From positions 1 through 27,351 of the IMG/VR virus record IMGVR_UViG_3300030118_004968: 27,351 nt of DNA; one strand, given 5' to 3'. The notes beneath the pieces are model-generated. The model was not told where the DNA came from. It did not search any database and saw only the letters and a list, made by a program, of their open reading frames with translations. The DNA comes from a virus. Positions within the stretch are counted from its first letter, which is position 1; the number at the start of each line of letters is the position of its first letter. Positions 7,473 to 27,351 of the stretch are shown in pieces. A program made the position numbers and the translations under genes.

Positions 7473-7943
7473 ATGGCTGGGTTTTTATCTGAGAATCAAA
7501 TAAATAAAATTAATAGTTTGGCAGACACGCTTCACACGACATTTGCTCAAACTATCACGGTGTATAAAAATGCTAAAAAAACATTAATAGCATCAACCAC
7601 CTCTTGGAACTCTTTGTATAGAAGAACAAATACAGGATCTAATAGCTCTGTTGAATACTCTACTGTAACTGACACCTTTGACGCTAGAATTTACTATGTT
7701 GATTTAGAAAAAGAGTATTTAGCTGATGAGGCTGGGACTGGGCAAGTTGGAACACAAAATAAAGTCATCTTGCCCGATGGCAGTGTAAAAATGGTTGTAA
7801 AACAAGCTGCATACGATTTTATAAGAGAAGCTAGAAGAGTTGAGTTTGATGGTAGAAAGTTTGCGATAAAGAGTGACGGAGTGCCTAGAGGATTAACAAG
7901 CAATAGATTTTTTACTTTTTTGCTTACTCCGATTGATGAATAA
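7473..7943 (+). CDS. Probable neck / head-tail connector protein
   Basis: A 156-residue protein. The N-terminal half is helical and Thr/Ser-rich (INKINSLADTLHTTFAQTI). The C-terminal half is beta-rich, with a loop-rich centre (VGTQNKVILPDGSVKMVVK) and a basic end (REARRVEFDGRKFAIKSDG). I see no catalytic motif. It opens a four-gene plus-strand block ending in a tail-tube protein, and the order small protein, basic protein, beta-rich protein, tube protein fits a neck/tail-completion module. The start follows a GTGTAA motif by 8 nt with no ribosome site, so a leaderless or near-leaderless message is predicted. Only 2 nt separate its stop from the next start, implying coupling. The structural role is inferred from context. 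Confidence 0.5.
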   Translation: MAGFLSENQINKINSLADTLHTTFAQTITVYKNAKKTLIASTTSWNSLYRRTNTGSNSSVEYSTVTDTFDARIYYVDLEKEYLADEAGTGQVGTQNKVILPDGSVKMVVKQAAYDFIREARRVEFDGRKFAIKSDGVPRGLTSNRFFTFLLTPIDE

Positions 7944-7945
7944 TT

Positions 7946-8527
7946 ATGATTGATAGGGAAGTACAGAATGCTATAAAAAATCAAGTACCTAGAGTGGGTA
8001 AATCTATTTTAAAAAAGGAGATAAATACCAAATTTAAAAAGATTAAAAAAGAAATGATAACAGAGTTTTTAACTCTGCCTGTGACACAAGAGCTTCTAGG
8101 TGGTCCTGATGCCCCAAACATAAGTGGCACATTAAATGGATTTACAAGTTTATTTGCTTTTATTGGATTTGATGCTGGTGATCAGCCAATAGCCCCAATA
8201 TTAAATGCTCTAGAAAGAACTGAATTATTATATTTAAGAGAGCTAAAAGATGGCAAAAAAGTTGGAGGAGAATTCAATGTAACTTTGCCGACGGCGCAGC
8301 AAATATTCTCAATTACGCCGATGCCTTGGGCTACTGGCAGAAGTTGGGCGCAAGGCATAGAAACAGGAATCTCTGGACTAGGCTTTCTTTTAAGAAAAAA
8401 AGGTAAGGGTAGATCGGGCGCTGCACTACAAAGTCGTGTAAAAGTAAGAGGAGGTAGGTTTAAAAATACCGCTTATATATCATCATTTATAAAGAAATAT
8501 GAAAGAAGATTTCAAAATTTAAAATGA
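7946..8527 (+). CDS. Probable neck / tail-completion protein
   Basis: A 193-residue basic protein. A Lys-rich helical N-terminus (KNQVPRVGKSILKKEINTKFKK) leads to a region with LTLPVTQELLGGPDAPNISG. It then has a Gly-rich segment with paired tryptophans (ITPMPWATGRSWAQGIETG) and a strongly basic C-terminus (RKKGKGRSGAALQSRVKVRG). The basic ends would suit contact with DNA or with a negatively charged connector surface. It starts 2 nt after the preceding stop, and its TGA overlaps the next ATG in an ATGA junction, so the block is translated as a coupled series. I do not recognise a named family with certainty. Neck or tail-terminator protein is the best fit from position between the connector-like gene and the tube gene. 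Confidence 0.45.
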   Translation: MIDREVQNAIKNQVPRVGKSILKKEINTKFKKIKKEMITEFLTLPVTQELLGGPDAPNISGTLNGFTSLFAFIGFDAGDQPIAPILNALERTELLYLRELKDGKKVGGEFNVTLPTAQQIFSITPMPWATGRSWAQGIETGISGLGFLLRKKGKGRSGAALQSRVKVRGGRFKNTAYISSFIKKYERRFQNLK

Positions 8528-9372
8528 AAGCACAATTCCAACATAATTTAACAACATCATTTTTTCTTTGGTTTGATAACTTTTTGTTAACCAAGGGAGA
8601 AGCCTTCAGTAATAAAACAGGTAGTCTTTTTTATTATGCAGATGATAGGCTAGATTCTAATTATAAAGCTTACGGTAGTGCATATAAACAGTGGGTTACA
8701 GACTCTTCAATTACAGGAGCTAATATCCCATCTGGTGTTTTTGTGGGCGGCGCTTTTTCAGGTAGAAATGATGGAGTTGTTTTAGATTTTGATAACGGGA
8801 GGTCTTTGCTTTCAGGAGCTAGTACTGATTTAACTGTAACTGGTGAATTTGCAGTCAAAGATTTCAATGTATACATTACTAATGATACAGAAGAAGATTT
8901 AGTAATAGAAAACAAATATGTCGTAAATTCAAGATTACCATCTCCAACAGAGGATGCAATAGCTCCTTATGATGATGTTGTGCCAGCTGTTTTTATATCT
9001 ACCGCAACAATGGAGAACAGACCTTATGCTTTTGGCGGTATGCAAGAAACTCAGTGCTCAGTAAAAGCAGTTATTTTAGCTGAGGACACATATCAACTTG
9101 ATGGCATTTTATCTATTTTTGCAGACTCAAGAGATGAAAACATTACAGAGCTACCAATGAGTGGATACCCAATAACAGAATTAGGTGATTTAAAAGGCGG
9201 CACTTATAATTATACTGGATTCATAGATTCATATTCTATTGACCAAGGTTTTTATGTAAATTCAGTAAGAACATCAAAATTAACCGATAGAGATAGAAAA
9301 TCATTAGCCCATGAACTATATGTAGGGTTTATAGATTTTGAAATACATCAGCATAGATTCCGATTTAACTAA
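8524..9372 (+). CDS. Conserved phage structural protein, probable neck/tail component
   Basis: A 282-residue, beta-rich, aromatic-rich protein beginning with a hydrophobic stretch, TTSFFLWFDNFLLTKGEAF. Other notable segments are YKQWVTDSSITGANIPSGVF, EFAVKDFNVYITNDTEEDLV and the C-terminal RKSLAHELYVGFIDFEIHQH. I recall similar sequences as hypothetical structural proteins in marine phage neck modules, but no experimental function comes to mind. It overlaps the preceding gene by 4 nt (ATGA), so expression is probably coupled. A 48-nt gap then separates it from the tail-tube gene. The absence of enzymatic motifs and its place between neck and tube genes favour a structural role. Confidence 0.5.
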   Translation: MKAQFQHNLTTSFFLWFDNFLLTKGEAFSNKTGSLFYYADDRLDSNYKAYGSAYKQWVTDSSITGANIPSGVFVGGAFSGRNDGVVLDFDNGRSLLSGASTDLTVTGEFAVKDFNVYITNDTEEDLVIENKYVVNSRLPSPTEDAIAPYDDVVPAVFISTATMENRPYAFGGMQETQCSVKAVILAEDTYQLDGILSIFADSRDENITELPMSGYPITELGDLKGGTYNYTGFIDSYSIDQGFYVNSVRTSKLTDRDRKSLAHELYVGFIDFEIHQHRFRFN

Positions 9373-9420
9373 TTTCATATTTTTCAACTAAAACTGTAAA
9401 CAAAGTAAAGAATTTTTATT

Positions 9421-10527
9421 ATGGCCAGAAACAGAGTAATTTATCAATCAGAAGCTTTGTATGTTAGTGAAGACGCATCATCTAGCGTAGCTAGCAAACA
9501 TGAGCAATTAGAAAAAGTTCAAAGCGCTAATTTGAGCTACACAATCAACAGGCAAGACATTAACCAATTTGGTGAGCTTGCTAGAATTGATTCAGTTATA
9601 ATGGACCCACCGACTGTTAGTACAGATTTTAGTTACTACTTAGCCGATGGATTTAATGAAAGAGCATTAGGTTTTTATGTTCAAACAGGAAGTGGAGGAG
9701 AAGGTGGAGTTAACAGCGATGCTGGACAATTCGCTTCAGGCCACATGATCTCTAGCTCTGGAAAGAATGTTTACTTAGTTACTGGTCCAGAAGGTCAAGA
9801 TATGGTTGGGCGCTCAATCGCTGATAGCACCGATACTGCAATCGGTGTCGGAAATTGCTATGTCAGCGATTACACTGTTGATTTAGCAGTTGGTTCTATT
9901 CCTACAGTTTCTGTAAGTTTAGAGGGCGCTAACGTGCGTGGAGATACTACTGCTGGTGGTATCGCATTGCCCTCAGTTGATCAAGAAGATGGGTCAGCAG
10001 TGGAGCGCTCTACAACTTTAGATGTTCCAGTAACAGGCCGCAGTGATGTTAATGCCTTGCGTCCAGGTGATATTACATTTTCATTAGGTAGTTTCCAAGA
10101 CGAAACTCTTTTCGACTTAACTGGTGTTAGTGGAATACATATTCAAAGTGCTTCTATAAACATACCACTCTCAAGAACTCCATTACAGAGATTAGGAAGC
10201 AGATTTCCATACGCTAGAGAAGTTGATTTCCCAGTTAATGTAACCATGAATATTTCAGCTCTTGTAAACGAGGCTGATGATTTTCAACTTGCGACTCAAT
10301 TAACACAAGCTCAGAATAACGCTAGTATTACTATAAAAAATAAAGCTGGCAACAACGCTGTAATTTACACATTAAAAGGCGCTAAAGTAGATAGTGAGTC
10401 TGTATCAAGCTCAATTGGAAGCAACAAAACTGTTGATATTACAATGTCTGCTCAGATTGGTGGAACTAATGATACTTCAGCTGGATTGTTTATGAGCGGT
10501 AAAAATGGTGATGAAGTATTCGCATAA
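9421..10527 (+). CDS. Probable major tail tube protein
   Basis: A 368-residue, beta-rich protein with the alternating strand and loop pattern of tail-tube proteins. It has an N-terminal domain (LSYTINRQDINQFGELARID, then CYVSDYTVDLAVGSIPTVSV) and a second domain with SRTPLQRLGSRFPYAREVDF. The C-terminal strands include VDSESVSSSIGSNKTVDITM. The N-terminal feature of a short loop followed by FGELARI and a DPPTVSTDFSYYL strand matches tube folds that stack in rings. It is the last gene of the inverted plus-strand block and is followed by a strong hairpin terminator, typical for an abundant structural product. No strong ribosome site is visible: upstream bases include a GTAAAG-like purine run and CTGTAA 21 nt before the ATG. 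The minus-strand gene at 23110-23955 appears to share its two-domain layout. Confidence 0.65.
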   Translation: MARNRVIYQSEALYVSEDASSSVASKHEQLEKVQSANLSYTINRQDINQFGELARIDSVIMDPPTVSTDFSYYLADGFNERALGFYVQTGSGGEGGVNSDAGQFASGHMISSSGKNVYLVTGPEGQDMVGRSIADSTDTAIGVGNCYVSDYTVDLAVGSIPTVSVSLEGANVRGDTTAGGIALPSVDQEDGSAVERSTTLDVPVTGRSDVNALRPGDITFSLGSFQDETLFDLTGVSGIHIQSASINIPLSRTPLQRLGSRFPYAREVDFPVNVTMNISALVNEADDFQLATQLTQAQNNASITIKNKAGNNAVIYTLKGAKVDSESVSSSIGSNKTVDITMSAQIGGTNDTSAGLFMSGKNGDEVFA

Positions 10528-10560
10528 GAATACTATTATTATCAAACAATAATAAAATTT

Positions 10561-10588
10561 AAAAACCCCGTGAAAGCGGGGTTTTTTT
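10561..10588. terminator. Bidirectional rho-independent terminator
   Basis: ACCCCG and CGGGGT form a perfect stem around a TGAAAG loop. A run of seven T follows on the plus strand and a T-run also follows on the minus strand. It lies between two converging genes (stops at 10527 and 10587), so it can end transcription of both the neck/tube block and the minus-strand head unit. Confidence 0.93.
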
Positions 10589-11066
10589 ATGGATAAAATA
10601 ATCTACCACTTCCATCAACCCCGTGCAGCTGTCTAGGCTGAGCTTGATAGATATTATATTGTGCTGATAAGCGCTCGACATTAGCGATAGAATCCTTTGC
10701 AAGTCCTCTATAGACCTTTGACACCTCATTACGGTTAACAAACGTTACAGAGCTTTCTCCGTCCTTTAAAGCTAAAATATTATCGCCGCTAACGGAGGAG
10801 TCGGTTATTCCGCGTAAAGCGTTTCTAGATTGTTTTGTATAATAATTGTAAAGATAAAGCTCCTTTAGAATTCCTTGAGCTTCAATATCCATGAAGCCAT
10901 ATGTTCCACTGGCTTGTGATCCACTAAAGTCTGTATAGATGTAAGTGTTTAATTTACCTAAGTTTTCAAATAACCAACCGCTAACTGAAGCGACAGTGGC
11001 TATGCCAGTATCGTTATCAAACTCTGTTTCTACTATACCTGAAGCTAAATTACCTAAGACGCTCAT
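10587..11066 (-). CDS. Probable head-tail connector / head completion protein
   Basis: A 159-residue protein. The N-terminal half contains VSGWLFENLGKLNTYIYTDF. A helical middle reads EAQGILKELYLYNYYTKQSR, and the C-terminal helix bears NEVSKVYRGLAKDSIANVER and YNIYQAQPRQL. Small helical proteins encoded two genes after the major capsid gene are commonly connector or adaptor subunits that bind the portal, and this is the basis for the call. Its stop overlaps the T-run of the bidirectional terminator at 10561-10588, so it ends the head unit. GTGTAATA lies 6 nt before its ATG and there is no ribosome site, implying a separate late promoter and a leaderless message. That could compensate for the terminator placed after the capsid gene. 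Confidence 0.45.
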   Translation of the reverse strand: MSVLGNLASGIVETEFDNDTGIATVASVSGWLFENLGKLNTYIYTDFSGSQASGTYGFMDIEAQGILKELYLYNYYTKQSRNALRGITDSSVSGDNILALKDGESSVTFVNRNEVSKVYRGLAKDSIANVERLSAQYNIYQAQPRQLHGVDGSGRLFYP

Positions 11067-11072
11067 GTAAGT

Positions 11073-11080
11073 TATTACAC
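11073..11080 (-). promoter_or_regulatory. GTGTAATA motif before the connector-like gene
   Basis: On the minus strand GTGTAATA is followed by only 6 nt and then the ATG at 11066. With a late-promoter-like initiation distance the transcript would start at the start codon. Confidence 0.45.
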
Positions 11081-11082
11081 TA

Positions 11083-11517
11083 TTAATCTGTCTTTAACCA
11101 ATCAAGAACTTGTTTATGTTTAGGATCTTTTGGGTCTAATTTAATTGATGGTTCTGGGACAGGGGCGGTGAATATGTTACCTTTATTTTGAAATTTATGA
11201 AATTCTTTTTTAATATTTTCAATTAGTAGAGGTCTATCATAAAAAGGATTAATTCCAACTTTCATTGCAAAACTATGCAAATCAGCATTATTCATCTTTT
11301 TTATCTTTTTATTTAATTCGTTTATATCATGAGTGCCAAAAAAATTAGTTTGCCCTGTACCAAAAGCTACCTCAACTTGTTTTAGCACTTCTTGATAACG
11401 TGCAGTACTGGTTTCTCCAGCTTTTCTAAGACGCTCTAGTTCTTCAAGCAAACCTTCTTTTTCAGGTACTTCTTGACCTGTAGTGACCTCTTCATATGGT
11501 GTTTCTTCTTCGCTCAT
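11083..11517 (-). CDS. Small acidic protein with SAP/Rho-N-like C-terminal motif
   Basis: A 144-residue protein. The first 35 residues are strongly acidic (MSEEETPYEEVTTGQEVPEK). A short helical segment follows, then a Lys-rich stretch, ELNKKIKKMNNADLHSFAMK. The segment ADLHSFAMKVGINPFYDRPLLIENIKKEF (split here as ADLHSFAMKVGI plus RPLLIENIKKEF) has the helix-turn-helix pattern of SAP, LEM or Rho-N-type nucleic-acid-binding motifs, where a leucine-rich helix and a glycine turn precede a basic helix. It is encoded directly after the major capsid gene and its terminator and before the connector candidate. Small proteins in this position are often head-associated, so a virion or packaging role is plausible, but this is inference. 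Its own promoter-like sequence precedes the ATG. Confidence 0.55.
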   Translation of the reverse strand: MSEEETPYEEVTTGQEVPEKEGLLEELERLRKAGETSTARYQEVLKQVEVAFGTGQTNFFGTHDINELNKKIKKMNNADLHSFAMKVGINPFYDRPLLIENIKKEFHKFQNKGNIFTAPVPEPSIKLDPKDPKHKQVLDWLKTD

Positions 11518-11525
11518 ACAATATT

Positions 11526-11533
11526 ATATACAC
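11526..11533 (-). promoter_or_regulatory. GTGTATAT variant plus TATAAT before the SAP-like gene
   Basis: On the minus strand GTGTAT is at 11533-11528 and overlaps a TATAAT hexamer that ends 5 nt before the ATG at 11517. The site could be read either as a variant of the GTGTAA late motif or as a sigma-70 -10 box. In both readings the message would be leaderless or nearly so. Confidence 0.4.
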
Positions 11534-11554
11534 TTAATAAATAATTTAAATAAA

Positions 11555-11584
11555 AAAAGGCCACCCCTTTCGAGGTGACCTTTT
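11555..11584 (-). terminator. Terminator after the major capsid gene
   Basis: AAAAGGCCACC and GGTGACCTTTT pair over 11 positions with one mismatch, and a T-run follows on the minus strand. It sits 25 nt past the capsid stop. It would stop most capsid transcripts, so the two genes beyond it need read-through or their own promoters. Confidence 0.85.
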
Positions 11585-11608
11585 AATATGAGTAATAAGT
11601 TAAGACTA

Positions 11609-12748
11609 TTAAGGTCCAACAATCTTACCTACAAGAACTCTATTGTCAAGGACAACTCTGCCCTCTTCCATAGATCCGAAGTATCCGATCTTGTTTTGGC
11701 GTATGCTGTACTGATCGTCAGCAATAAGATTGAACTCTGCTCCACTGTCATCATCAACAGCGACTGCACGAATAAGTGCGTCTCTTGAGCGGTCAACACC
11801 AAGTACAAAGTCGTCATCGGCTGTATCGAACTGCATGCCTACTGATGATCCATCTGGATTGTAATAAGTGGTTGAACCAGCAGCTACATCGAAAAGAGTG
11901 TTAAACTTTTGGTTTGTTCCAAGCTCATTGATCTCCATAATTCCAAGACCGTAAAACTCAGGAGTACCTGCGTTACGGAAAATATCCATACGAAGCTCAT
12001 CAGGGGCTGCAAGACCGTCTGTAGCGCCTGGGGCTGAGTCATTTGCATTCGCAGAGTTGATTGGATTATAAGCTATTGAGCGAATATCCTGAACAATCTC
12101 TGGTGAGCAGATAAGGTCAGTTAAGCCCTTTGTACGACTTGTTGGTGTGCCACCGATGAATGAAGTATTGATTCTCTTAGCAAGAGTAAGTAGATCATTC
12201 ATGTCGGCAAGTGTGAACTTGCCAGCAACTCGGTTAGTCTGAACGTGTGGTTTTGAATTTGTAGTAGCACCTGCTACAGCTGTCATAAGCAAAGTAGCGG
12301 AAGTGGTTTCCTGCTTAATTAAGATCTCCTGAGCAACACGAGTGAAAGTCTTGCTTACTACGTCCATGCGGCTTTTAGCAGCATAACGGCGATCAAAACT
12401 TACAGCACTGTCAAGGCTATAAGTAGCAAGTTTCAACTCAGATGCGGTTGGAAGAACTTGTGAAGTTGGCAAACCTCCAGCGTGGCTTTGGCTATATACC
12501 TGAACATAATCCTCATCGGAAATGTTGTAGTAAAGGTCCAAAGGAATGCTTGGATTATCATCAGCGTTAAACTGAAGTGACTGGAACAGATTGCTTACAG
12601 TTGGAGCTTGGTTAAGAACCTCAGCTAAAACTGGTCCGATAAACTCGGCAAGAGCAACCTGAGCCTCATATGCAATAGTTTTATTGCGGGAGGCCATAGC
12701 TTTAATAAGCTCGACCTGCTCTGGTGTACGTTTTAAAGTAATTTTCAT
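11609..12748 (-). CDS. Major capsid protein (HK97-fold type)
   Basis: A 379-residue protein of the size and composition of HK97-fold capsid proteins. The N-terminal helix contains RTPEQVELIKAMASRNKTIA, followed by AEFIGPVLAEVLNQAPTVSN. A beta-rich centre contains VSFDRRYAAKSRMDVVSKTF, a spine-helix-like stretch. The A-domain-like section has SPEIVQDIRSIAYNPI, and the C-terminus has RNKIGYFGS-like and VLDNRVLVGKIVGP strands (exact residues IRQNKIGYFGSMEEG). It lies downstream of portal, protease/scaffold and decoration genes, the canonical order. It has a canonical Shine-Dalgarno, AAGGAG at 12767-12762, 13 nt from the ATG, and a terminator downstream, which fits abundant expression. Its base composition is visibly less AT-rich than neighbouring tail genes. 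I see no N-terminal delta domain. Scaffolding is instead supplied by the upstream gene. Confidence 0.9.
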   Translation of the reverse strand: MKITLKRTPEQVELIKAMASRNKTIAYEAQVALAEFIGPVLAEVLNQAPTVSNLFQSLQFNADDNPSIPLDLYYNISDEDYVQVYSQSHAGGLPTSQVLPTASELKLATYSLDSAVSFDRRYAAKSRMDVVSKTFTRVAQEILIKQETTSATLLMTAVAGATTNSKPHVQTNRVAGKFTLADMNDLLTLAKRINTSFIGGTPTSRTKGLTDLICSPEIVQDIRSIAYNPINSANANDSAPGATDGLAAPDELRMDIFRNAGTPEFYGLGIMEINELGTNQKFNTLFDVAAGSTTYYNPDGSSVGMQFDTADDDFVLGVDRSRDALIRAVAVDDDSGAEFNLIADDQYSIRQNKIGYFGSMEEGRVVLDNRVLVGKIVGP

Positions 12749-12776
12749 TTTAAAATTTTATCTCCTTGGTTAAAAT

Positions 12777-13409
12777 TTACTGACAATCGAATTTTACAAC
12801 TAAGAACTCACCAGCAAACTGATCAGTTGTTGGTCCTTGACTTGTACGTGATCCAGTTCCTATGACAGTTCCGAATGCGTTAGCATTACTTGGATGTGTT
12901 CCAGTTATTTTACCTACATTGTTTGTTGAAATTCTGATTCCAGAACCAACAGGATAAAGTGAAGCAGTTCCATCAAACGCTGCTGCGGCTAATGTAAAGA
13001 TTCCTTTTGTGGCAACAGGTACAGACTGACCAGGTAAAACAGCCTGAAGCTCAGTCTGCTTAGTTGGATTGTAAAGTAGTTTTTCGCCATTTTCGTCATT
13101 TTTAGCAGTCTGATTAAGAGTTATTCCAAGTGGAAACTCTCCAGATGATGCGCCTGTGACTTTAAGATTGACTTCAGGGTACATAGCTGTTGTACCTAAG
13201 AACGGGTAGCTGGTCTCGCCCAAATAAGAATTTGTTTGATACTCAACAGGCTCTTTATTGAAGTCACCATTAGAGACCTTCACGAAAACGCCAGCATCGC
13301 CGCCGCCTGTTCCAGTCGTGCTGTCGAGAACCGCATCATTTTCAAGTGCGTACATGTTCACGACATCATTGTCAGAGTATTGTCTGAAAGGTAGAATTCG
13401 TAATCCCAT
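12777..13409 (-). CDS. Probable capsid decoration protein
   Basis: A 210-residue protein beginning MGLRILPFRQYSDNDVVNMY. It is rich in Gly, Thr and Asn, with beta-strand patterns (GVFVKVSNGDFNKEPVEYQ; FPLGITLNQTAKNDENGEKL; LQAVLPGQSVPVATKGIFTL). I recall similar proteins encoded directly upstream of the major capsid gene in marine phages and thought to decorate or stabilise the head. That association is from memory and position, not from a named domain I can prove. It is 28 nt from the capsid start and 32 nt from the protease/scaffold stop, so it is cotranscribed with both. A TAAAAT lies 5 nt before the ATG on the minus strand, and no ribosome site is visible. Confidence 0.55.
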   Translation of the reverse strand: MGLRILPFRQYSDNDVVNMYALENDAVLDSTTGTGGGDAGVFVKVSNGDFNKEPVEYQTNSYLGETSYPFLGTTAMYPEVNLKVTGASSGEFPLGITLNQTAKNDENGEKLLYNPTKQTELQAVLPGQSVPVATKGIFTLAAAAFDGTASLYPVGSGIRISTNNVGKITGTHPSNANAFGTVIGTGSRTSQGPTTDQFAGEFLVVKFDCQ

Positions 13410-13441
13410 GATGTATTTTAGTTAAATTAAAGTTTAGTTAG

Positions 13442-14110
13442 TTAAGAAATTTCAATATTTTCACGCTTGAAAGCATCCTTAAATCTTTCAGTTAAAGATT
13501 TGTTTTGAGATGCGACCGCTTCGTTTGCGTTAGGAATCTCAGAGTCGGTCACTTCAGCTTCGTCGAAAACTTTTTCAACTTCAACCTCCTCAGAGGCATT
13601 TGAAACTCTTTTAGCGACCTCTTCATCAATACGCTTTTGGATTTCCTCTTGAATTGAGGCTTGTGCCTCTTTATTCTTGTGTCTCCAAAGAACTTCTAGC
13701 TTTGAAGCAAAAGCAGTAAATTCTGCGTCCTCGCCAAGATCTTTAAGCTCGTTAGCTAAAAATTCACGATCCTCATCATCAAGGTCGTAAGAATCATCAA
13801 TAGAATCCATTCTTTCATTGAATCTAGCTATAGCTTCTTCAGCTTTTTTCTCATTTTCAAAAACAGAAATGCGCTCATTTGCTTCTCCTAGTTTCTGCTC
13901 AAGATCAGCCACCGAGGTTTTTAGATCCTCGTACTCTTTAGCGATTAATTCTTTTTGTTTCTTGGCTTCTTCAATATCTGCACGATACTTTTCATCCCGC
14001 TCTTTAATAGCATTAGAGAAAGTGTCAGTCATTGAAGCGACAGCTTCCTTAGAGAATTTTTTCTCATTTAGAAGCTCTTTAAGTTCTGAAATAGTTTTTT
14101 CGATTTCCAT
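13442..14110 (-). CDS. Possible nested scaffold protein from an internal start
   Basis: Within the protease-scaffold gene, ATG at 14110-14108 (residue 274, MEIEKTISELKELLNEKK) lies at the junction between the protease domain and the coiled coil. On the minus strand it is preceded by AAAAGGA, with AAGGA at 14125-14121 and 10 nt to the ATG. Initiation here would give a 222-residue scaffold without the protease, the same arrangement as lambda Nu3 inside C. The ribosome site is an observation and the nested product an inference. The spacing is slightly long, and most other gene starts in the window lack such a site, which makes this one stand out. Confidence 0.5.
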   Translation of the reverse strand: MEIEKTISELKELLNEKKFSKEAVASMTDTFSNAIKERDEKYRADIEEAKKQKELIAKEYEDLKTSVADLEQKLGEANERISVFENEKKAEEAIARFNERMDSIDDSYDLDDEDREFLANELKDLGEDAEFTAFASKLEVLWRHKNKEAQASIQEEIQKRIDEEVAKRVSNASEEVEVEKVFDEAEVTDSEIPNANEAVASQNKSLTERFKDAFKRENIEIS

Positions 14111-14929
14111 AGCGTTAATATCCTTTTCGTTGTTTACATTTAAATTTAAATTTTGTGAAATTTTATCACGTTTATCATTTATAAAAATTTTCTCTGTATC
14201 AGGTTTATCTGAGTACAAACCTTTTACATTTGCTGCTGGGTTCATAGTGTAGGCAATACCTAAAGGGTATATTTTACCAGTTATCAGCCTATATATATTT
14301 TCTCCTTTATCTGTTTTTCCAGTGCCACCATAACTCCTTAAAAATCCTTTCATTTCTGCTATTTTTTCAGGGTCTGAGATTATTTTTGCATCCTCAAGAT
14401 TATCGCTACCCACGGCTAAAACAAAATTACTGAACCCGACTTCCCAGCTTGCAGAAACTTTTTGATATGCTGGATCGTCTGGGTCTAAGGATTTTTGTAC
14501 AAGATTAGTAAAATCTTTATTTACTGATTTATAAATGACAGCCCCTAAAGCTATATTAAAAGGATTTTTTTTATTTTTTATATCCTCAGCGTTTAAAATT
14601 TTATTAGTTTTAATATCACTAAATCCAGCATCTACAATATGCCCGACTATTTTTTGTTTATTGTGCTCAATATTTGTTGGCTTATGGATAAAATTTGGCG
14701 TGTGCTCAATCGCAGTTGTAGTTGACATTCCATCGCCGTTTCTGTTGAATTTATTTACAACAGCCGCATTAAAGGCCACTCCCAGTAAATCAACATTGCT
14801 TTTATAGTCTATATTTTTAGGGACTAATGGCGCTAGATTACTTAATGAAGCCTCAGATATAAGAGAAGCTTTGCTTATTTTGCAAACTGAGATTGGGCAT
14901 TCAAAAGTTGTTTTATATTTGTAATCCAT
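13442..14929 (-). CDS. Prohead protease fused to scaffolding domain
   Basis: A 495-residue protein with two parts. Residues ~1-235 look like a herpesvirus-assemblin/T4 gp21-type prohead protease. A His-containing segment, NIEHNKQKIVGHIVDAGF, has H89 and H97 as candidate catalytic residues, with H82 nearby. The candidate nucleophile region is KVSASWEVGF (S159, S161). Residues ~275-495 are almost entirely charged coiled coil (for example ERDEKYRADIEEAKKQKEL), as expected of an internal scaffold. The fusion resembles lambda C/Nu3 and other protease-scaffold genes, in which the protease clears the scaffold after procapsid assembly. Its ATG overlaps the portal stop by one base (TAATG), so it is translationally coupled to portal. 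An internal ATG at residue 274 may make the scaffold alone. Confidence 0.85.
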   Translation of the reverse strand: MDYKYKTTFECPISVCKISKASLISEASLSNLAPLVPKNIDYKSNVDLLGVAFNAAVVNKFNRNGDGMSTTTAIEHTPNFIHKPTNIEHNKQKIVGHIVDAGFSDIKTNKILNAEDIKNKKNPFNIALGAVIYKSVNKDFTNLVQKSLDPDDPAYQKVSASWEVGFSNFVLAVGSDNLEDAKIISDPEKIAEMKGFLRSYGGTGKTDKGENIYRLITGKIYPLGIAYTMNPAANVKGLYSDKPDTEKIFINDKRDKISQNLNLNVNNEKDINAMEIEKTISELKELLNEKKFSKEAVASMTDTFSNAIKERDEKYRADIEEAKKQKELIAKEYEDLKTSVADLEQKLGEANERISVFENEKKAEEAIARFNERMDSIDDSYDLDDEDREFLANELKDLGEDAEFTAFASKLEVLWRHKNKEAQASIQEEIQKRIDEEVAKRVSNASEEVEVEKVFDEAEVTDSEIPNANEAVASQNKSLTERFKDAFKRENIEIS

Positions 14930-16899
14930 TAAGATTCTTTAGTGCTATGGTATAAAATTGCCGATGGATACAACTCAAGATTATGCTTTGCAGATATTGA
15001 TAAAACCTCTGACAAAGTTTCTAGATTTTCTATCTCATCAAGATTGTTTACACAGAAATCAAAGCGTTCGGCCCAAGATTCTTCATTTTCAGAGCATACT
15101 ATAGATTCACAGAGATCAGTTAAGACATTTCCCATAGATTCAGAAATCTCACCTTTTTCACTTTTAGTAACAAGTTTATCTCTAGAATCATTTATAAAAT
15201 TATCTATTTTGTACAATGTTGATTGTATATTTGCTCTAGAATATGTGGATCTTGAAACGGGTATATCGACTGTACCTTCGGGTCTACCCACCTCATTCGA
15301 GGTTTTTGCTTTTGGAGCGTCAGATTCTATCATTGGTACACCTCCGACTAAAGGATTGTAAAAACCTCCTTTTCTTTCTTGGATAAATGTTTCTTGAGCT
15401 GGAGCAATATTTTCTGCATCAGGAAACTTACCATTATGGAACATTTCCATTCCTTGTTGCGGAGTGAGTATTCCAAGCTCCATTAATCGAGTAGAAACTC
15501 TCATCAATTGAGTTTCATCCCTCATATCTATATCCTTCATTTTAACTTGCGGATAAGATCTAAAACCAAGCTCTGATGATATTCTTTTTATTTCTCTTTG
15601 TAAGAAATCATTTAAAAATCCATTTCTAGACTCTTTTAATCTATCAATAAATATTTGTGCTTTAACTTGAGTGGAGTTGTATTTTTCTTCGCCTACAACT
15701 ATATTTTGCAGCCCTTGTTTAATATCTTCATTAAGAATTTTATATTTATCTGGCCCCAAAACTCTATTAAGTTCTGGTATTATAAATTCTGCTTTTGTTG
15801 TATAATCAGAAACTAAAACCCTACCAACACTTTCATTTTTAAATAGGTTTTGCATCGCAGCCAGATTGTTAGCATTTACCCCGCCTTTATCTGGATCAGC
15901 ACCCATGGTGATAAGCAAGATTACATTTTCTACAGTTCTTGTAATCGCTTGGTCCATTTTTTTCAGTTCCATTTTAGCATTTATATCATCTAAAACTGGA
16001 AACCCAAATGGAACAGCAAAAGGCTCATAGTCTTGTTTTTTGTAAAATGAGTACGACAGCTTTTCTCCATCAAGCTTCATTTTAACGCCAGTAGTGGTAT
16101 AGCCACCCTCTTTAATTAGTTTTTGCGTATACTCATCAAAACTATCAAACAAAGCTTTTTCTTCATCTGTTTGTGGATCTCTAAGTCTAGCTAATTCATA
16201 TTCAGACAAAATTTTCTCATATGCGTTTCTTGAGAATGTTGATGACCTCTTAGTTGTTATGTCATAAGGATTTAGCAAAATATACCTTAAAGGTATTCTA
16301 TTGACCGCAGGATTAATTGATCCTACCTGATTTATAATTTTTGCGTAATCATCTGCCTGAAACCTTCCATCCATTCTGTATAAGAAAACATTTCCACTAC
16401 GGTAGTACTCTCTAAAATACTGATCTTTGATACTTATTAAATTTATTCTTTTGAACCACTCTTCAAAGAATTGTCTGCTTTTTCTAGAGCCGCCCTCTAG
16501 ATAAACATCTGTATTTGTAAACTCAGACATTATATCAATCGCGTTTCTAAAAACAGCTACGTTTGCATAAGCCTTTTGACAAAGCTCTATGGCATCGCGC
16601 ACATTAACCCCATCAGAGGCATATTCGTATGGAAGCATGCCTACTGCTATACTAGAGTATCTATTCCTAAGATTTACAAAAGCAGATCTATTTTGTCTAC
16701 TGCCACTAAAAGCACTAGAGCTAGCAGACTGCCTCCTAGCTTCAGCTATTTCTTTGAAAGACGCATCAGATGTGTAAAATGGCTCACCTAGTAAATCAGG
16801 CTGCACTTTACCATTTTCACCTATAGGCACATAGGTTTTTCTTTCTTTATTAAATTTATTCCAGTATTCTGAGCGTTTGGTATATTTTCTCTTGGCCAT
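14929..16899 (-). CDS. Portal protein
   Basis: A 656-residue protein with a basic N-terminus (MAKRKYTKRSEYWNKFNKER). The region around residues 85-180 (GMLPYEYASDGVNVRDAIEL, then AVFRNAIDIMSEFTNTDVYL, then FREYYRSGNVFLYRMDGRF) matches the wing and clip entry of large myovirus-like portals. A central segment (ITRTVENVILLITMGADPDK) is followed by an INEDIKQGLQNIVVGEEKYN-like stem/crown portion (exact residues NEDIKQGLQNIVVG). The dodecameric portal is the vertex through which DNA is packaged and ejected. Size and position between TerL and the prohead protease support the call. GTGTAA lies 14 nt before the ATG with no ribosome site. The last ~150 residues are less conserved-looking and acidic. 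Confidence 0.88.
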   Translation of the reverse strand: MAKRKYTKRSEYWNKFNKERKTYVPIGENGKVQPDLLGEPFYTSDASFKEIAEARRQSASSSAFSGSRQNRSAFVNLRNRYSSIAVGMLPYEYASDGVNVRDAIELCQKAYANVAVFRNAIDIMSEFTNTDVYLEGGSRKSRQFFEEWFKRINLISIKDQYFREYYRSGNVFLYRMDGRFQADDYAKIINQVGSINPAVNRIPLRYILLNPYDITTKRSSTFSRNAYEKILSEYELARLRDPQTDEEKALFDSFDEYTQKLIKEGGYTTTGVKMKLDGEKLSYSFYKKQDYEPFAVPFGFPVLDDINAKMELKKMDQAITRTVENVILLITMGADPDKGGVNANNLAAMQNLFKNESVGRVLVSDYTTKAEFIIPELNRVLGPDKYKILNEDIKQGLQNIVVGEEKYNSTQVKAQIFIDRLKESRNGFLNDFLQREIKRISSELGFRSYPQVKMKDIDMRDETQLMRVSTRLMELGILTPQQGMEMFHNGKFPDAENIAPAQETFIQERKGGFYNPLVGGVPMIESDAPKAKTSNEVGRPEGTVDIPVSRSTYSRANIQSTLYKIDNFINDSRDKLVTKSEKGEISESMGNVLTDLCESIVCSENEESWAERFDFCVNNLDEIENLETLSEVLSISAKHNLELYPSAILYHSTKES

Positions 16900-19728: not shown

Positions 19729-20773
19729 CTTCTGGTCCTATTCCTAAAATTCTAGCTTTCCACTCAGCCATACCCTCTAAGCGTTGAGATTCTTCCTTAA
19801 CAGCTAATTTTTGCATCTCTGCAATTCTTATCATGTTTTTGCGCTCTTCTTCCTCTTGGAAGAGTTGCACTATCGAAAGAAATGATGCATTTTCTTTCTG
19901 AGACTTTTTCATTCGCTCGGCACGGTCACCCTGAAGCTTTTTAGTTAGGTTTTCTATCCTAGTCTCGCATTGATGATATTCTTGTGATTTTGCTTTGATT
20001 ATCTCAGCTAACCTAACGCTCATATCTGTTTGATCATCAGCTACGTCAAACATATCGTTAAGTTTATTCAAGTGACTGCTTATAACCTCAAGGTTGATAA
20101 CTTCCTTGCATGCGTTGAGATATAAATTTATCTCATCCGCAGTTAGGTCTGGCTTATCCCAAGTCAGTCTAACAAATTCATGCTCAAAAAGAACTCTATC
20201 TGATTCATTTAAATAATTATTAATTATTTTTAAAAAACGCGAGTTGTTCAAATTGACCCCTAACTTTTCAATACAAATTTGCGTTTGCCTGTTAATCTTA
20301 GAGTCATCTAAGCCTAGACCAGTGGCATCATTGATTTTTTTGATGATTCTACTCGTAGACTTCGGTGCAATGTATGAATGCAGCGCACCACTGTCTTGTG
20401 ATGGCATTATGTCGGGATTTATCTCTCTAATGTATGCTAATACTGTCCTTTGCTCATTTGATAGCGGCTTGACTTGCCTATCGGCAAATATTATTTTTGC
20501 TATTTCAAGCGATGACAAGCCTTGTTCGGCTTGCTCAAGTATAAAATCCTTTTGTTGTTGTGTTAGTTCTATCGCTTCGACTTGCTCACGACCCGTTGTT
20601 TTGTAATCAATGCAATTCTCAACTAAATACTTCCTGACAGCGCGGCCCTGTTTAGATCTGCCATCTAAAGTGTCATCTTGAAAACATTGCTTAGTCAAAT
20701 CAATTAAGTTTTTGATTTTAGTAGCATTTTCGTCTATAAACTTTTTTTGCTCTTCAGATAGTTCCATCATCAA
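19718..20773 (-). CDS. Probable terminase small subunit-like HTH protein
   Basis: A 351-residue protein. The N-terminal region includes GRSKQGRAVRKYLVENCIDY. A helix-turn-helix-like segment, ILEQAEQGLSSLEIAKIIFAD, lies at about residues 77-97. A second domain carries GALHSYIAPKSTSRIIKKIN, and a conserved-looking stretch includes ESDRVLFEHEFVRLTWDKPD. A long Glu/Lys coiled coil forms the C-terminal ~100 residues. An HTH plus oligomerising coiled coil encoded just ahead of the nuclease and TerL fits a small terminase, which selects DNA for packaging. I recall similar proteins beside TerL in marine phages, but the small-terminase label is an inference. The start lies within the end of the sigma gene (20-nt overlap). 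If MMM is read, several start codons are possible. Confidence 0.55.
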   Translation of the reverse strand: MMMELSEEQKKFIDENATKIKNLIDLTKQCFQDDTLDGRSKQGRAVRKYLVENCIDYKTTGREQVEAIELTQQQKDFILEQAEQGLSSLEIAKIIFADRQVKPLSNEQRTVLAYIREINPDIMPSQDSGALHSYIAPKSTSRIIKKINDATGLGLDDSKINRQTQICIEKLGVNLNNSRFLKIINNYLNESDRVLFEHEFVRLTWDKPDLTADEINLYLNACKEVINLEVISSHLNKLNDMFDVADDQTDMSVRLAEIIKAKSQEYHQCETRIENLTKKLQGDRAERMKKSQKENASFLSIVQLFQEEEERKNMIRIAEMQKLAVKEESQRLEGMAEWKARILGIGPEDVI

Positions 20774-21428
20774 TAATATCGTTTTCTCTTAGTAAATCTA
20801 TGGCCGTTTGTAAAAACTTCTTTTTTAAGTTTTTAACTTGCCTATAACCTAACTTATTTTTTTGTGCGGATATTTTATATCCCATGTACTTTGCTACATC
20901 TTGTTCAGTTTTCTTTTCAAAGTATAGCATCCTATAAGCCTTGTAATGAATCGCGCTTAACTTTTTCTTCATTAACTTATCAAGTTTAGTTAATGAGTTT
21001 TTAAAATCAAAATTATCATACTTTTTGTTTTGTATTTCTTTGGAGTAATCCTCAACCGATAGAGGTATTTTAAGTTGTAGGCCAATTTTTTTTGACTTCT
21101 CCCATTTACAGCAAACTTCACACCTTAAAGGGTTGTGATTTGGCAAGTGTGTAGATTTACAAGGATTAGTATAATTACCATAATGATTCCTTAGTAAGTT
21201 TCTTATCTGGTTTGATATGATCCTACCAATCCAAGGCTCAAGTGGGCGTGACTGATCCCACATATGCCACTTCTTAGCTATATGACTTTTTATGATTTGC
21301 TCTACATCATCGAAGTCAAACCATTTTATCGCACTTAACCTCCATTTATACTTCTGTTTTTGAATGGCTTGATCAATTATGTCTGAGCAATCCTCATATG
21401 TCTTTTTCTGATCGGGATCGTTTTTCAT
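20754..21428 (-). CDS. Sigma-70-like phage transcription factor with Cys/His insert
   Basis: A 224-residue protein. Residues ~35-85 (KWFDFDDVEQIIKSHIAKKW, then PLEPWIGRIISNQIRNLLRN) look like sigma region 2, the core-binding and -10-recognition part. Residues ~160-210 (HYKAYRMLYFEKKTEQDVAK, then GYRQVKNLKKKFLQTAI) look like a region 4-type helix-turn-helix. Between them lies an insert, C90-x3-H94-x8-C103-x2-C106, that could bind zinc, which is unusual for sigma factors. Phages with T4 gp55-like sigmas use them to switch host polymerase to late genes. The nearby zinc-ribbon gene, overlapping by 35 nt, may encode a partner. Its predicted promoter would be the recurrent GTGTAA motif, though a link is not shown. 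The sigma call is fairly confident; the late role is inferred. Confidence 0.75.
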   Translation of the reverse strand: MKNDPDQKKTYEDCSDIIDQAIQKQKYKWRLSAIKWFDFDDVEQIIKSHIAKKWHMWDQSRPLEPWIGRIISNQIRNLLRNHYGNYTNPCKSTHLPNHNPLRCEVCCKWEKSKKIGLQLKIPLSVEDYSKEIQNKKYDNFDFKNSLTKLDKLMKKKLSAIHYKAYRMLYFEKKTEQDVAKYMGYKISAQKNKLGYRQVKNLKKKFLQTAIDLLRENDIIDDGTI

Positions 21429-25452: not shown

Positions 25453-25611
25453 ATGACACCAAACGAACGAATGAAAACATGGCGCTCGCTAAGAGCGCCC
25501 AAACCACCTTGGGAAACTTTTAAGATTCTTCTAAGATCTGAAGGAACCGCCGACGGCGCACAAAAAAAATGGAAAAAAATACTTGACAAAAAAAGTAAAA
25601 AAAATACTTGA
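25453..25611 (+). CDS. Small basic protein (52 aa), unknown
   Basis: A 52-residue protein, MTPNERMKTWRSLRAPKPPW followed by ETFKILLRSE and ending in a Lys-rich tail (KKWKKILDKKSKKNT). It begins 7 nt after the stop of the preceding gene, in the context TCTAACATGAC. The second gene of the other bicistron (26716) starts in the same context. Proline and tryptophan in the middle and basic ends suggest nucleic-acid or membrane contact, but no family is recognised. The last 30 nt of the coding region contain two TTGACA hexamers 25 nt apart, one of which is the -35 of a possible promoter just beyond. The reading frame is short, so coding status is less certain. Confidence 0.55.
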   Translation: MTPNERMKTWRSLRAPKPPWETFKILLRSEGTADGAQKKWKKILDKKSKKNT

Positions 25612-25636
25612 CAGGTCGGCGAGAGTGTGCTAAAAA
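25608..25636 (+). promoter_or_regulatory. Promoter-like sequence ahead of repeat R1
   Basis: TTGACA (25608-25613), 17 nt with GTGTGC at its end, then TAAAAA (25631-25636). The predicted start is about 25643, the first base of hairpin A in R1. The -35 matches the consensus and the -10 is poor. If active it would make a small structured RNA with no coding frame. Confidence 0.35.
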
Positions 25637-25726
25637 AACCTTCGTAAGTCGTTGACACTCAACGAGTTACGCGGCGCGGGCCGCCCTTTCTGCGTAAGTC
25701 GTTGACGCTTAACGACTTACTAAAGT
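25637..25726. repeat. Triple-hairpin element, copy R1
   Basis: Hairpin A (25643-25671, one G-G mismatch), a 21-nt GC-rich spacer (25672-25692) with a hairpin, and hairpin B (25693-25720). The spacer hairpin is GCGGC/GCCGC with loop GCGG (25671-25684). The element has AACCT on its 5' side and a TAAAGT-type tail. It occupies most of the 212-nt gap between the 52-aa gene and the 49-aa gene. Confidence 0.85.
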
Positions 25727-25789
25727 AGTCAAAAGGCGGTTATCGGGCATTATACAAAAAAAATAATCGAAAAAAAATAAACTTTTTAC

Positions 25790-25818
25790 TTGCTTTTTTT
25801 CTGTAGCTGTGTTATATT
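25790..25818 (+). promoter_or_regulatory. Leaderless-type sigma-70 promoter P4
   Basis: -35 TTGCTT, 17 nt, -10 TATATT at 25813-25818, preceded by GCTGTGT. The ATG follows after 5 nt. Confidence 0.75.
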
Positions 25819-25823
25819 CAGAT

Positions 25824-25973
25824 ATGAAAAATAAGTTTGCCACCAGAGAAAAAATCAGAGTTATCGGAGAATTTTGCCAGTGGGTCGAAAAATCTGACCA
25901 GTTAAGTCGCAGAGAAAAATCAAAAATAATTCTTGACAAAATGAGAGAATTGAGTCAGCTGATAGAAAAATAA
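25824..25973 (+). CDS. Small helical protein (49 aa), unknown
   Basis: A 49-residue basic protein, MKNKFATREKIRVIGEFCQW then VEKSDQLSRREKSKIILDKM, ending RELSQLIEK. It reads as two or three amphipathic helices without membrane segments, and no family is recognised. The ATG is 5 nt after the P4 -10, so a leaderless message is expected. Its stop at 25971-25973 sits 3 nt before the flank of repeat R2. A small DNA-binding or adaptor protein is conceivable from its Lys/Arg content. Support for coding is the promoter, the ATG-AAA-AAT start shared with its neighbours, and the open frame. Confidence 0.65.
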   Translation: MKNKFATREKIRVIGEFCQWVEKSDQLSRREKSKIILDKMRELSQLIEK

Positions 25974-25975
25974 AT

Positions 25976-26066
25976 AACCTTACGTAACTCGTTGACAGCC
26001 AACGAGTTACGCGGATGCGCCCGCCGCGGCGGCGTAAGTCGTTGATACTCAACGACTTACGTAAGT
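25976..26066. repeat. Triple-hairpin element, copy R2
   Basis: Hairpin A (25983-26011) is perfect (GTAACTCGTTG/CAACGAGTTAC). The 21-nt spacer (26012-26032) contains the perfect palindrome CCGCCGCGGCGG (26021-26032). Hairpin B (26033-26061) is perfect (GTAAGTCGTTGA/TCAACGACTTAC, loop TAC). The 3' end runs into a further palindrome, ACTTACGTAAGT, and a CGTAAG-TT-CTTACG stem (26060-26073). Confidence 0.9.
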
Positions 26067-26073
26067 TCTTACG

Positions 26074-26161
26074 CAAGGCTATGTGTCAAGTACTATTTAC
26101 TATTAATCTATTTACTATTTAACTCACGACCTGCGATCTACAAAAAAATAAATAAAATTGT
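26074..26161. other. Intergenic A/T-rich stretch after R2
   Basis: This is the rest of the 223-nt gap between genes. It contains a direct repeat of CTATTTACTATT (about 26091-26123). A short open frame starting at 26081 has no other support. It is otherwise featureless up to promoter P5. Confidence 0.4.
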
Positions 26162-26190
26162 TTGACTATCTTTTTAATCTGTGCTATACT
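26162..26190 (+). promoter_or_regulatory. Leaderless-type sigma-70 promoter P5
   Basis: -35 TTGACT, 17 nt, -10 TATACT at 26185-26190, preceded by ATCTGTGC. The ATG follows after 6 nt. Confidence 0.78.
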
Positions 26191-26196
26191 CTGGGT

Positions 26197-26424
26197 ATGA
26201 AAAATTCACTTACTACTTCAGACATCAGAGATCTTACTAACGAGGGAACCGAGTTCGGCGTGGACAATCGCGCGATCAACGAACTCCTACACGACGCGCA
26301 GGAGCGCGAGGAGTTCGAGGCGTGGCTCGACAGTCGCATGGATGATGCCCGTGCTCACATGGATGCGAAATGGGCAGAGCAGGAGGAGCCTGATCTTCGC
26401 CTCGATGCGCTCACCGAGGGGTGA
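26197..26424 (+). CDS. Small acidic protein (75 aa), unknown
   Basis: A 75-residue protein, MKNSLTTSDIRDLTNEGTEF then GVDNRAINELLHDAQEREEF. The second half is a long charged helix (EAWLDSRMDDARAHMDAKWA) ending EPDLRLDALTEG. It is rich in Asp, Glu and Arg. Codons are GC-rich, in clear contrast to the head and tail genes, a sign of different origin or selection. The ATG at 26197 is chosen rather than a TTG at 26158, since the earlier codon precedes the promoter's -35. It is transcribed from P5 without a leader. No homologue is recognised. Confidence 0.75.
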   Translation: MKNSLTTSDIRDLTNEGTEFGVDNRAINELLHDAQEREEFEAWLDSRMDDARAHMDAKWAEQEEPDLRLDALTEG

Positions 26425-26437
26425 GCAAAAATAAAAC

Positions 26438-26466
26438 TTTACTTAACTAAAAAATTATACTATACT
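26438..26466 (+). promoter_or_regulatory. Leaderless-type sigma-70 promoter P6
   Basis: -35 TTTACT, 17 nt, -10 TATACT at 26461-26466. The ATG follows after 5 nt. Unlike P1-P5 it lacks the TCTGTG block and has ATTATAC instead. Confidence 0.75.
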
Positions 26467-26471
26467 TAATC

Positions 26472-26714
26472 ATGAAAAAAATATTAAACAAATTCATTCA
26501 CTGGTACTTGGTCGCTTGCTTAGCAAGTCTAATCGCTACCCTCCTAATAATGATACTCGCAATCTCATTCGGCTCTGGGGATTCTCTTAGAGATAGTATA
26601 AGAGGTTGGAATGGCGACTCAGTCATGTTCATAATGTTCGGGCTTCCGTTAGTGTGGGGCTTCATACTAACGTGTTTTGATTGGGCAGTAGATAAACTAA
26701 ACTCAAAAATCTAA
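26472..26714 (+). CDS. Small two-helix membrane protein
   Basis: An 80-residue protein. The basic N-terminus MKKILNKFIHW precedes a hydrophobic helix (YLVACLASLIATLLIMILAI). A short soluble loop (SGDSLRDSIRGWNGDSV) follows, then a second hydrophobic helix (MFIMFGLPLVWGFILTCF), and the tail is charged (DWAVDKLNSKI). The layout is an inner-membrane hairpin, with both ends probably in the cytoplasm given the positive N- and C-termini. Its role is unknown. Superinfection exclusion or host membrane modification are usual for such early membrane proteins, and holin is another option. The stop is one base before the next ATG, so the two genes form a bicistron transcribed from P6. Confidence 0.75.
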   Translation: MKKILNKFIHWYLVACLASLIATLLIMILAISFGSGDSLRDSIRGWNGDSVMFIMFGLPLVWGFILTCFDWAVDKLNSKI

Positions 26715-26715
26715 C

Positions 26716-26961
26716 ATGACTAAATTCGAAAAACTAAACGAGGCGATTCAAAACATGAACAAAAAAAACTTAGCTCCAATGGTAGACAGGGAAGAAAAAA
26801 TCCAAAATCAAAACAGAAGTAATCTTTTAAGAATGTTAGGAGATATAAAGTTCGAACTTCACTTCTTGCATAATGATATGCGATTTAAATGGAATAAAAA
26901 AGAGATAGTTCAAAAGCTCGAAGACCTTGAAGAGCTAGTAGCAAAGAAAAGATTTTTTTAG
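26716..26961 (+). CDS. Small helical protein (81 aa), unknown
   Basis: An 81-residue, Lys/Glu/Asn-rich helical protein, MTKFEKLNEAIQNMNKKNLA, with a long coiled-coil-like region and a His/Phe patch (GDIKFELHFLHNDMRFKW). It ends EDLEELVAKKRFF. It begins one base after the stop of the membrane protein, in the TCTAACATGAC context seen also at 25453, so it is probably translated by coupling. No family is recognised. Cotranscription with a membrane protein suggests a cytoplasmic partner. It ends the last complete unit before repeat R3. Confidence 0.7.
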   Translation: MTKFEKLNEAIQNMNKKNLAPMVDREEKIQNQNRSNLLRMLGDIKFELHFLHNDMRFKWNKKEIVQKLEDLEELVAKKRFF

Positions 26962-27024
26962 TAGAGTTAGGTATTGCGTCGGTGGGGTTTACTTGATTTT
27001 CCTCTCTGGTCATTTTCATAGCCT

Positions 27025-27049
27025 GTCAGGTAAGCGCATAAAACCTGAC
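27025..27049. repeat. Hairpin overlapping the 5' flank of R3
   Basis: GTCAGGT (27025-27031) and ACCTGAC (27043-27049) are perfect 7-bp inverted arms around an 11-nt loop. The right arm overlaps the AACCT flank and first base of hairpin A in R3. Folding of this hairpin and of hairpin A would be mutually affected. Confidence 0.5.
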
Positions 27050-27132
27050 GTAACTCCCTCATAATGAAGGAGTTACGCGGGCGGGGCCGCCCGCGGCCCG
27101 TAAGTCGTTGATACTCAACGACTTACATAAGT
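27042..27132. repeat. Triple-hairpin element, copy R3
   Basis: Hairpin A (27049-27077) has CTCC/GGAG where R2 has CTCG/CGAG. The 21-nt spacer (27078-27098) holds CGGGCG-GGGC-CGCCCG (27078-27093). Hairpin B (27099-27126) has stem and loop identical to R2. The element fills most of the 248-nt gap before the last gene. Confidence 0.9.
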
Positions 27133-27209: not shown

Positions 27210-27351
27210 ATGAACAATAGAATTGATGAAATAATGGCGCATTTAAATAGTGCATCTGTAGACGGCGGTTTCTGCCTCTTTGTTGAAAATGGTGAAATCG
27301 TTGCTAAAGATCTTCTTCATAATCCTGATGAACTCAATGATCAACTTGAGT
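27210..27351 (+). CDS. Partial small gene at right edge, unknown
   Basis: The frame is open from the ATG at 27210 to the right edge (47 codons), with no stop reached. It begins MNNRIDEIMAHLNSASVDGG and continues FCLFVENGEIVAKDLLHNPD. A mixed helix and strand pattern is visible, with no signal peptide or motif I recognise. The start is 6 nt after the TATAGT of P7, the same geometry as its neighbours, so the message is predicted to be leaderless. The C-terminus lies outside the window. Confidence 0.65.
   Translation, partial: MNNRIDEIMAHLNSASVDGGFCLFVENGEIVAKDLLHNPDELNDQLE

Follow-up and report, generated by a model that had tools for sequence, protein, structure and literature searches.

The window analyzed here, a stretch of 27,351 nt that corresponds to an IMG/VR virus record with terminase and PhoH genes, contains three elements of the same design, all in place among small genes (Table 1). 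Each element consists of two palindromes, A and B, which are 29 nt long with GTAA...TTAC cores of 27 nt. In all three, the intervening GC-rich spacer is 21 nt long and the start of B lies 50 bp from the start of A. Sequences matching GTAASTCGTTGA with at most 2 mismatches occur 15 times in the window compared to 2.85 expected, a count reached in 0 of 100 shuffles. The coordinates, this geometry and the shuffle test bear out an earlier note on this DNA, which had described elements at these positions with a fixed plan and spacing under selection; the sequence common to the arms of A and B is likewise confirmed. As for the flanks given in that note, AACCT is found at all three elements and the TAAGT-type tail at two, with element 1 carrying TAAAGT. 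In hairpin A of element 1, arm position 5/23 is mismatched, with G facing G (GTAAG/GAGTTAC). The elements encompass neither a tRNA nor any Rfam 15 family at the gathering score.

Table 1. Coordinates of the elements and associated features in the window and in related contigs
Feature	Sequence	Position	Strand	Remarks
Element 1	Window	25643..25721	.	Palindrome A 25644-25670, GC-rich spacer 25672-25692, palindrome B 25694-25720; begins 32 nt past ORF 25453-25611
Element 2	Window	25983..26061	.	Palindrome A 25984-26010, spacer 26012-26032, palindrome B 26034-26060; begins 10 nt past the stop codon of ORF 25824-25973
Element 3	Window	27049..27127	.	Palindrome A 27050-27076 with divergent half-sites, spacer 27078-27098, palindrome B 27100-27126; begins 88 nt past ORF 26716-26961
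TTGACA	Window	25608..25613	+	Aimed into element 1, 36 bp off the GTAA edge
Weak -10 box, TAAAAA	Window	25631-25636		Accompanies the TTGACA aimed into element 1
TTGACA	Window	26084..26089	-	Aimed into element 2 from the right, 29 bp off the edge
Small ORF, 49 aa	Window	25824..25973	+	Leaderless-type promoter, TTGCTT-N17-TATATT, 5 nt before the ATG; ends 10 nt before element 2
Small ORF, 75 aa	Window	26197..26424	+	Leaderless-type promoter, TTGACT-N17-TATACT, 6 nt before the ATG; after element 2
Small ORF	Window	27210..27351	+	After element 3; runs off the window
Sigma-like protein	Window	20754-21428	-	With homologues; by-eye sequence reading
Sigma-like protein	G001	38013-38486	-	By-eye sequence reading
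tRNA-Met gene	L120	13391-13466		Ends at the element's first base
tRNA-Met gene	L109	5786-5861		Ends at the element's first base
tRNA-Met gene	L042	3971-4046		Ends at the element's first base
tRNA-Met gene	L074	977-1051		Ends at the element's first base

The exact pattern retrieved four further viral contigs, and a relaxed pattern retrieved 104 stretches in IMG/VR together with one contig of a Verrucomicrobiales metagenome-assembled genome. Altogether, 317 distinct elements were extracted from about 100 uncultivated viral contigs, 251 of which remained after the removal of near-duplicates. Among the 317 elements, the core-to-core spacer is 23 nt in 247, 24 nt in 34 and 25 nt in 16, and any one phage mostly keeps to a single length (25 in G022, 23 in G005, mostly 24 in G026). 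The spacers are 88% GC in genomes of 35-44% GC, and their sequences are phage-specific. Within 1.06 Mb of element-bearing contigs, 248 of the 273 palindromes are paired at 46-56 bp and 87 are paired at exactly 50 bp, compared to 0 matches in shuffled sequence. Additional palindromes located 34-35 or 60 bp from a pair form three-dyad arrays in L038, L130 (G026) and L145 (G003). The INPHARED phage collection yielded no DNA match to the element, and literature searches produced no relevant description of it. The elements form a large family of phage DNA sites that had not been listed before.

The phages that carry them are a siphovirus-like lineage. Their contigs have in common terminase, portal-type, PhoH and sigma-like proteins, with replication genes present in the larger contigs; except for terminase and PhoH, these names reflect our reading of the sequences. 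Seven large contigs share 17 protein families, mostly replication, nucleotide and structural ones together with a sigma-like protein, none of which stands out as a candidate for a protein that binds the element. Judging by eye, the lineage apparently encodes two sigma-factor-like proteins, one adjoining the terminase region and the other present in all seven large contigs. One contig segment (L140, G003:1-20000) harbors 17 tRNA genes at 7768-14933, along with a tmRNA gene that encodes a tag peptide of its own.

The elements are intergenic and cluster in a single small-gene region per phage that spans about 2-14 kb in the mapped contigs. The placement after small transcription units given in the earlier note is supported. 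The distance past the stop codon is often 0-20 nt (the peak) or 80-130 nt, and the next start lies 60-130 nt further on. The two variants of the outer half-site are distributed unevenly, GTAACTC tending toward the preceding stop codon (52:12) and GTAAGTC toward the following start (60:25). Some elements directly adjoin tRNA-Met genes, the 3' end of which is the first base of the element. In the window, 6 of the 8 small plus-strand genes between 24682 and 27210 are preceded by a sigma70-like TTnnnn-N17-TATANT promoter. At these six genes, only 5-6 nt separate the end of the -10 box from the ATG and a Shine-Dalgarno-like motif is lacking, so they look leaderless. Given this placement and the leaderless-looking single-gene units, the element can be construed as a boundary between short, self-contained units.

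The conserved unit of the family is a 12-bp half-site, GTAASTCNYTGA, which reads GTAASTC-N-YTGA and is present four times per element, once in each arm. In the pooled half-sites, TAA and T10 are essentially invariant, position 5 is exclusively G or C (0.36/0.64), and position 9 is exclusively T or C. The restriction at position 5 and the near-invariance of TAA and T10 are expected from groove recognition, in which base pairs of duplex DNA are read. Exact TTGACA boxes aim into the elements family-wide and only rarely point outward. Their distances from the element are phased by about 10 bp, falling near 7-9, 17-19, 27-29 and 35-38 bp. At 38 bp, the TTGACA is followed by a -10 box; at the shorter distances, no -10 box was seen by eye, so part of the TTGACA signal may reflect a second protein contact. 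We considered the G/C type of the outer half-site as the determinant of the side that bears the inward TTGACA and found no relation at 38 bp.

The earlier note held that bases change while pairing is kept, and took such compensatory change as the mark of a folded RNA or a DNA cruciform. Within the window, the change from CTCG/CGAG to CTCC/GGAG is indeed present; in sets of 60 to about 250 relatives, the arms are nearly independent. Because the copies were collected by sequence, the collection would lack any relative in which conserved positions carry compensated changes, so that covariation can be fairly judged only at the free positions 5, 8, 9, 11 and 12. Arm position 5/23 is mostly G-G or C-C (GG72 CG51 CC23 GC21; mutual information z 0.3), and at position 9/19 (TA103 CA39 TG21 CG6) the mutual information is at background. 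Re-dealing the arms between elements did not lower the pairing (pooled z 0.8 and 1.4), and of 60 sequences, 26 lack the pair at columns 6/24 and 25 lack the one at columns 9/21. A weak residual consists in 83.5% paired cells compared to 82.4% in shuffles (7/500). RNAalifold, applied to 60 sequences, returned 0 consensus pairs. At least one mismatch is present in 86% of 502 stems, with 14% being mismatch-free. We reject RNA covariation, given the near-independence of the arms and the lack of RNAalifold pairs. The same fate befalls two ancillary proposals. The alternative long A-B hairpin, which is the minimum-energy fold of element 1 in place of three hairpins, pairs less than expected by chance in the family (z about -5). 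The spacer, described as folding by itself, is palindromic as DNA (12.1 vs 8.8 matches), but its fold as RNA (z only -0.25) speaks against an independently selected RNA hairpin. The earlier observation was, then, correct on the existence and layout of the elements and wrong on covariation.

Inverted half-sites with independently varying degenerate positions are the signature of a predicted homodimeric DNA-binding protein. Protein binding to duplex DNA would account for the pattern better than a folded RNA or a cruciform. A homodimer, or a pair of dimers, on the duplex is suggested by the independence of the half-site positions, the separation of the dyads by about five helical turns, and the stiff, GC-rich spacer. 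An RNA element appears unlikely to us, even though several features speak for it. It could be a structure belonging to the preceding gene (3'-end, termination or processing), or else a small RNA that starts at the inward TTGACA promoter and ends at a T-run. The three window elements have strong folding z-scores (-5.3, -5.9 and -7.5), the sites lie directly past stop codons and tRNA genes, A-run/T-run flanks are present, and hairpin A of both element 2 and element 3 has a terminator-like minus-strand match. A TTGACA-N16/17-TAtaGa promoter about 38 bp off the edge would start transcription near the edge, and on the sense strand of the preceding gene G-U pairs exceed A-C mismatches (142 vs 98), a weak RNA-type signal. 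However, the stem positions that vary freely do not covary, most stems are mismatched, no consensus structure emerges, and position 5 is confined to G or C and yet is unpaired. Moreover, the sense side lacks a T-run, and the inward promoter is unrecognizable in many elements, 217 of the 317 having no TTGACA at 34-42 bp.

Single palindromes with the same motif are scattered on the chromosomes of a few Verrucomicrobiota (about 45 in G260, 20 in G078, 10 in G329, and 1 in G351); reversed-pattern controls in Verrucomicrobiota genomes gave 0 matches. The amplification is patchy: of 60 genomes in the G078 family a single one is affected, and in the order of G260 it is mostly G260 itself. By a crude ORF call, 37 of 54 chromosomal sites are intergenic, whereas some fall within long ORFs; many of the sites overlap a stop codon or lie shortly after one. 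The G/C mismatch at position 5 recurs in the chromosomal palindromes, and no coherent regulon was seen among the adjacent genes. These sequence matches suggest that phage and host have a recognizing protein in common, or else that the site passed from one to the other, and they hint at Verrucomicrobiota as the hosts of these phages. The phage-specific spacer suggests a phage factor, whereas the chromosomal palindromes suggest a host factor. Two other repeats were noticed in the vicinity. A second palindrome, TACAGCATTnnnAATGCTGTA, lies beside chromosomal palindromes at L178, L185, L186, L192, L234 and L236 (G078, G329); its variable center is repeated in inverted orientation about 100 bp away, after TTGAC, in some loci, an unexplained composite repeat. 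A ATGTTCCAYRTGGAACAT-type palindrome, which resembles a parS site, adjoins the GTAASTC palindrome in two host loci that precede an argS-like gene (L179, L184), and a similar palindrome adjoins a phage element (L037, near 10265).

Comparison of the flanks identified 196 pairs of elements that are homologous on both sides and 463 that are homologous on one side only. In a non-redundant set of 81 one-sided pairs, homology is lost within the element in 45 cases, before it is reached in 25 and beyond it in 11. The 45 internal endings are spread over A (14), the spacer (19) and B (12), with no preferred crossover position. For example, the right flank of element 2 matches L070 with 87% identity along 293 bp, after which the spacer and the A side differ. 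Thus, the possibility of a mobile shuffling site, raised in the earlier note, gains from the finding that homology between phages often ends within the element. Neither tyrosine (PF00589) nor serine (PF00239) recombinases were detected in 19 element-bearing contigs of up to 148 kb, all of them linear and possibly incomplete. Given that no recombinase was found and the crossovers are scattered, homologous recombination at a shared repeat fits these observations. Conservation of neighbors is 0.32 +- 0.05 at element gaps and 0.43 +- 0.08 and 0.30 +- 0.04 at other gaps in the region; because it is not clearly lower at element gaps, we do not claim that the elements drive exchange, and they may not be preferred exchange points.

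Two further explanations invoke mobility. Passive spread of a palindromic repeat, REP- or MITE-like, through the phages and some Verrucomicrobiota genomes would explain the patchy amplification of single palindromes on chromosomes and the presence of some of these inside long ORFs. We consider this quite improbable, given that the phage copies are nearly always paired at a fixed spacing, are not near-identical, and vary at the degenerate rather than the conserved positions, and that the Y1 transposase (PF01797) is absent from 8 phage contigs, G078 and G329. A site-specific recombination site of the attC-, res- or dif-like kind, which would move gene cassettes, is the least probable option, with a very small chance of being correct. 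The cassette-like genes with elements past their stop codons, the switch of homology within the element and the 12-bp half-sites in pairs are all compatible with such a site. The lack of recombinases in the 19 contigs and the scatter of crossovers over the whole element speak against an integrase or resolvase site; the dyads, furthermore, are odd-length with a variable center.

With moderate confidence, we favor the interpretation of the element as a composite duplex-DNA boundary site between leaderless units that doubles as a point of cassette exchange. The four 12-bp half-sites make up two 27-bp dyads with centers 50 bp, or about five helical turns, apart, and a rigid, GC-rich, phage-specific spacer between them. 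Most likely, a homodimeric protein would occupy the element as a dimer of dimers. In the accessory region of these phages, whose hosts are probably Verrucomicrobiota, the site would separate leaderless transcription units of one gene each and, once bound, would mark the unit boundary by a transcription stop or a road-block combined with insulation. Because the element is repeated, it could serve as the shared sequence for cassette exchange, for which homologous recombination is the putative route. The sites, their spacing and placement, the independence of the arms and the loss of homology at the element are computed results; the protein and its oligomeric state, the boundary effect, the route of recombination and the host are inferred from them. 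A more specific scenario is possible although we hold it only tentatively: recombinase-free phage cassettes might rest on the doubling, at a fixed helical phase, of a palindrome that some Verrucomicrobiota chromosomes carry singly, with the dimer of dimers insulating each leaderless one-gene unit and homologous recombination at the repeated site trading these units between phages. If the favored interpretation is true, it would represent a widespread, undescribed way in which marine, freshwater and other environmental phages organize and swap accessory genes, possibly anti-host ones, and the motif could be used to find and type this phage lineage and to point to its hosts. More generally, three copies can mimic RNA covariation, for which four independently varying protein half-sites are a simpler cause.

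Several known systems resemble the elements in part. Like integron attC sites, the elements are imperfect inverted repeats past a cassette gene, with two pairs of half-sites around a variable center; unlike attC, they come with no integrase (PF00589, 19 contigs) and no fixed crossover, and the genes of the element region are in both orientations and have their own promoters. As regards the res/six sites of serine resolvases, no serine recombinase (PF00239) was detected in the same 19 contigs. With REP/BIME repeats, the elements share short, dispersed, intergenic palindromes that are often paired, as well as single copies on chromosomes; unlike these repeats, they have sequence-specific half-sites, independent arms and locked 50-bp pairing. 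A RAYT (Y1_Tnp) gene was found in none of the 8 phage contigs, G078 and G329; some Y1_Tnp genes are present in G260, G351 and G027.

The stoperators of cluster A mycobacteriophages (L5, D29), for which recombination between copies has been reported (PMC5712189), are similar in comprising tens of dispersed, mostly intergenic binding-site copies per phage, although binding is only predicted here, and in the link of site orientation to transcription. A stoperator, however, is one asymmetric site of 13 bp (GGTGGc/aTGTCAAG) for the repressor of a temperate phage, whereas the elements combine four half-sites into two dyads at a fixed spacing within one region; the stoperator-like TGTCAAG/CTTGACA recurs in element flanks only. 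No integrase (PF00589 or PF00239) was found in the 19 linear, possibly incomplete contigs. The loose analogy with PeSL cassettes drawn in the earlier note is apt with respect to a plastic small-gene region and the exchange of modules at the element. These cassettes of T4-type phages (Arbiol et al. 2010) reportedly lie between the small genes of a hyperplastic region, where they combine a promoter with a palindrome and are linked to module shuffling. Modules are exchanged at the elements as well, yet exchange is common at other gaps too, and compared to the promoter and stem-loop of PeSLs, an inward promoter accompanies only a subset of the elements. Unlike in PeSLs, it is not the pairing of the stems that is conserved in the elements but two spaced, sequence-specific dyads.
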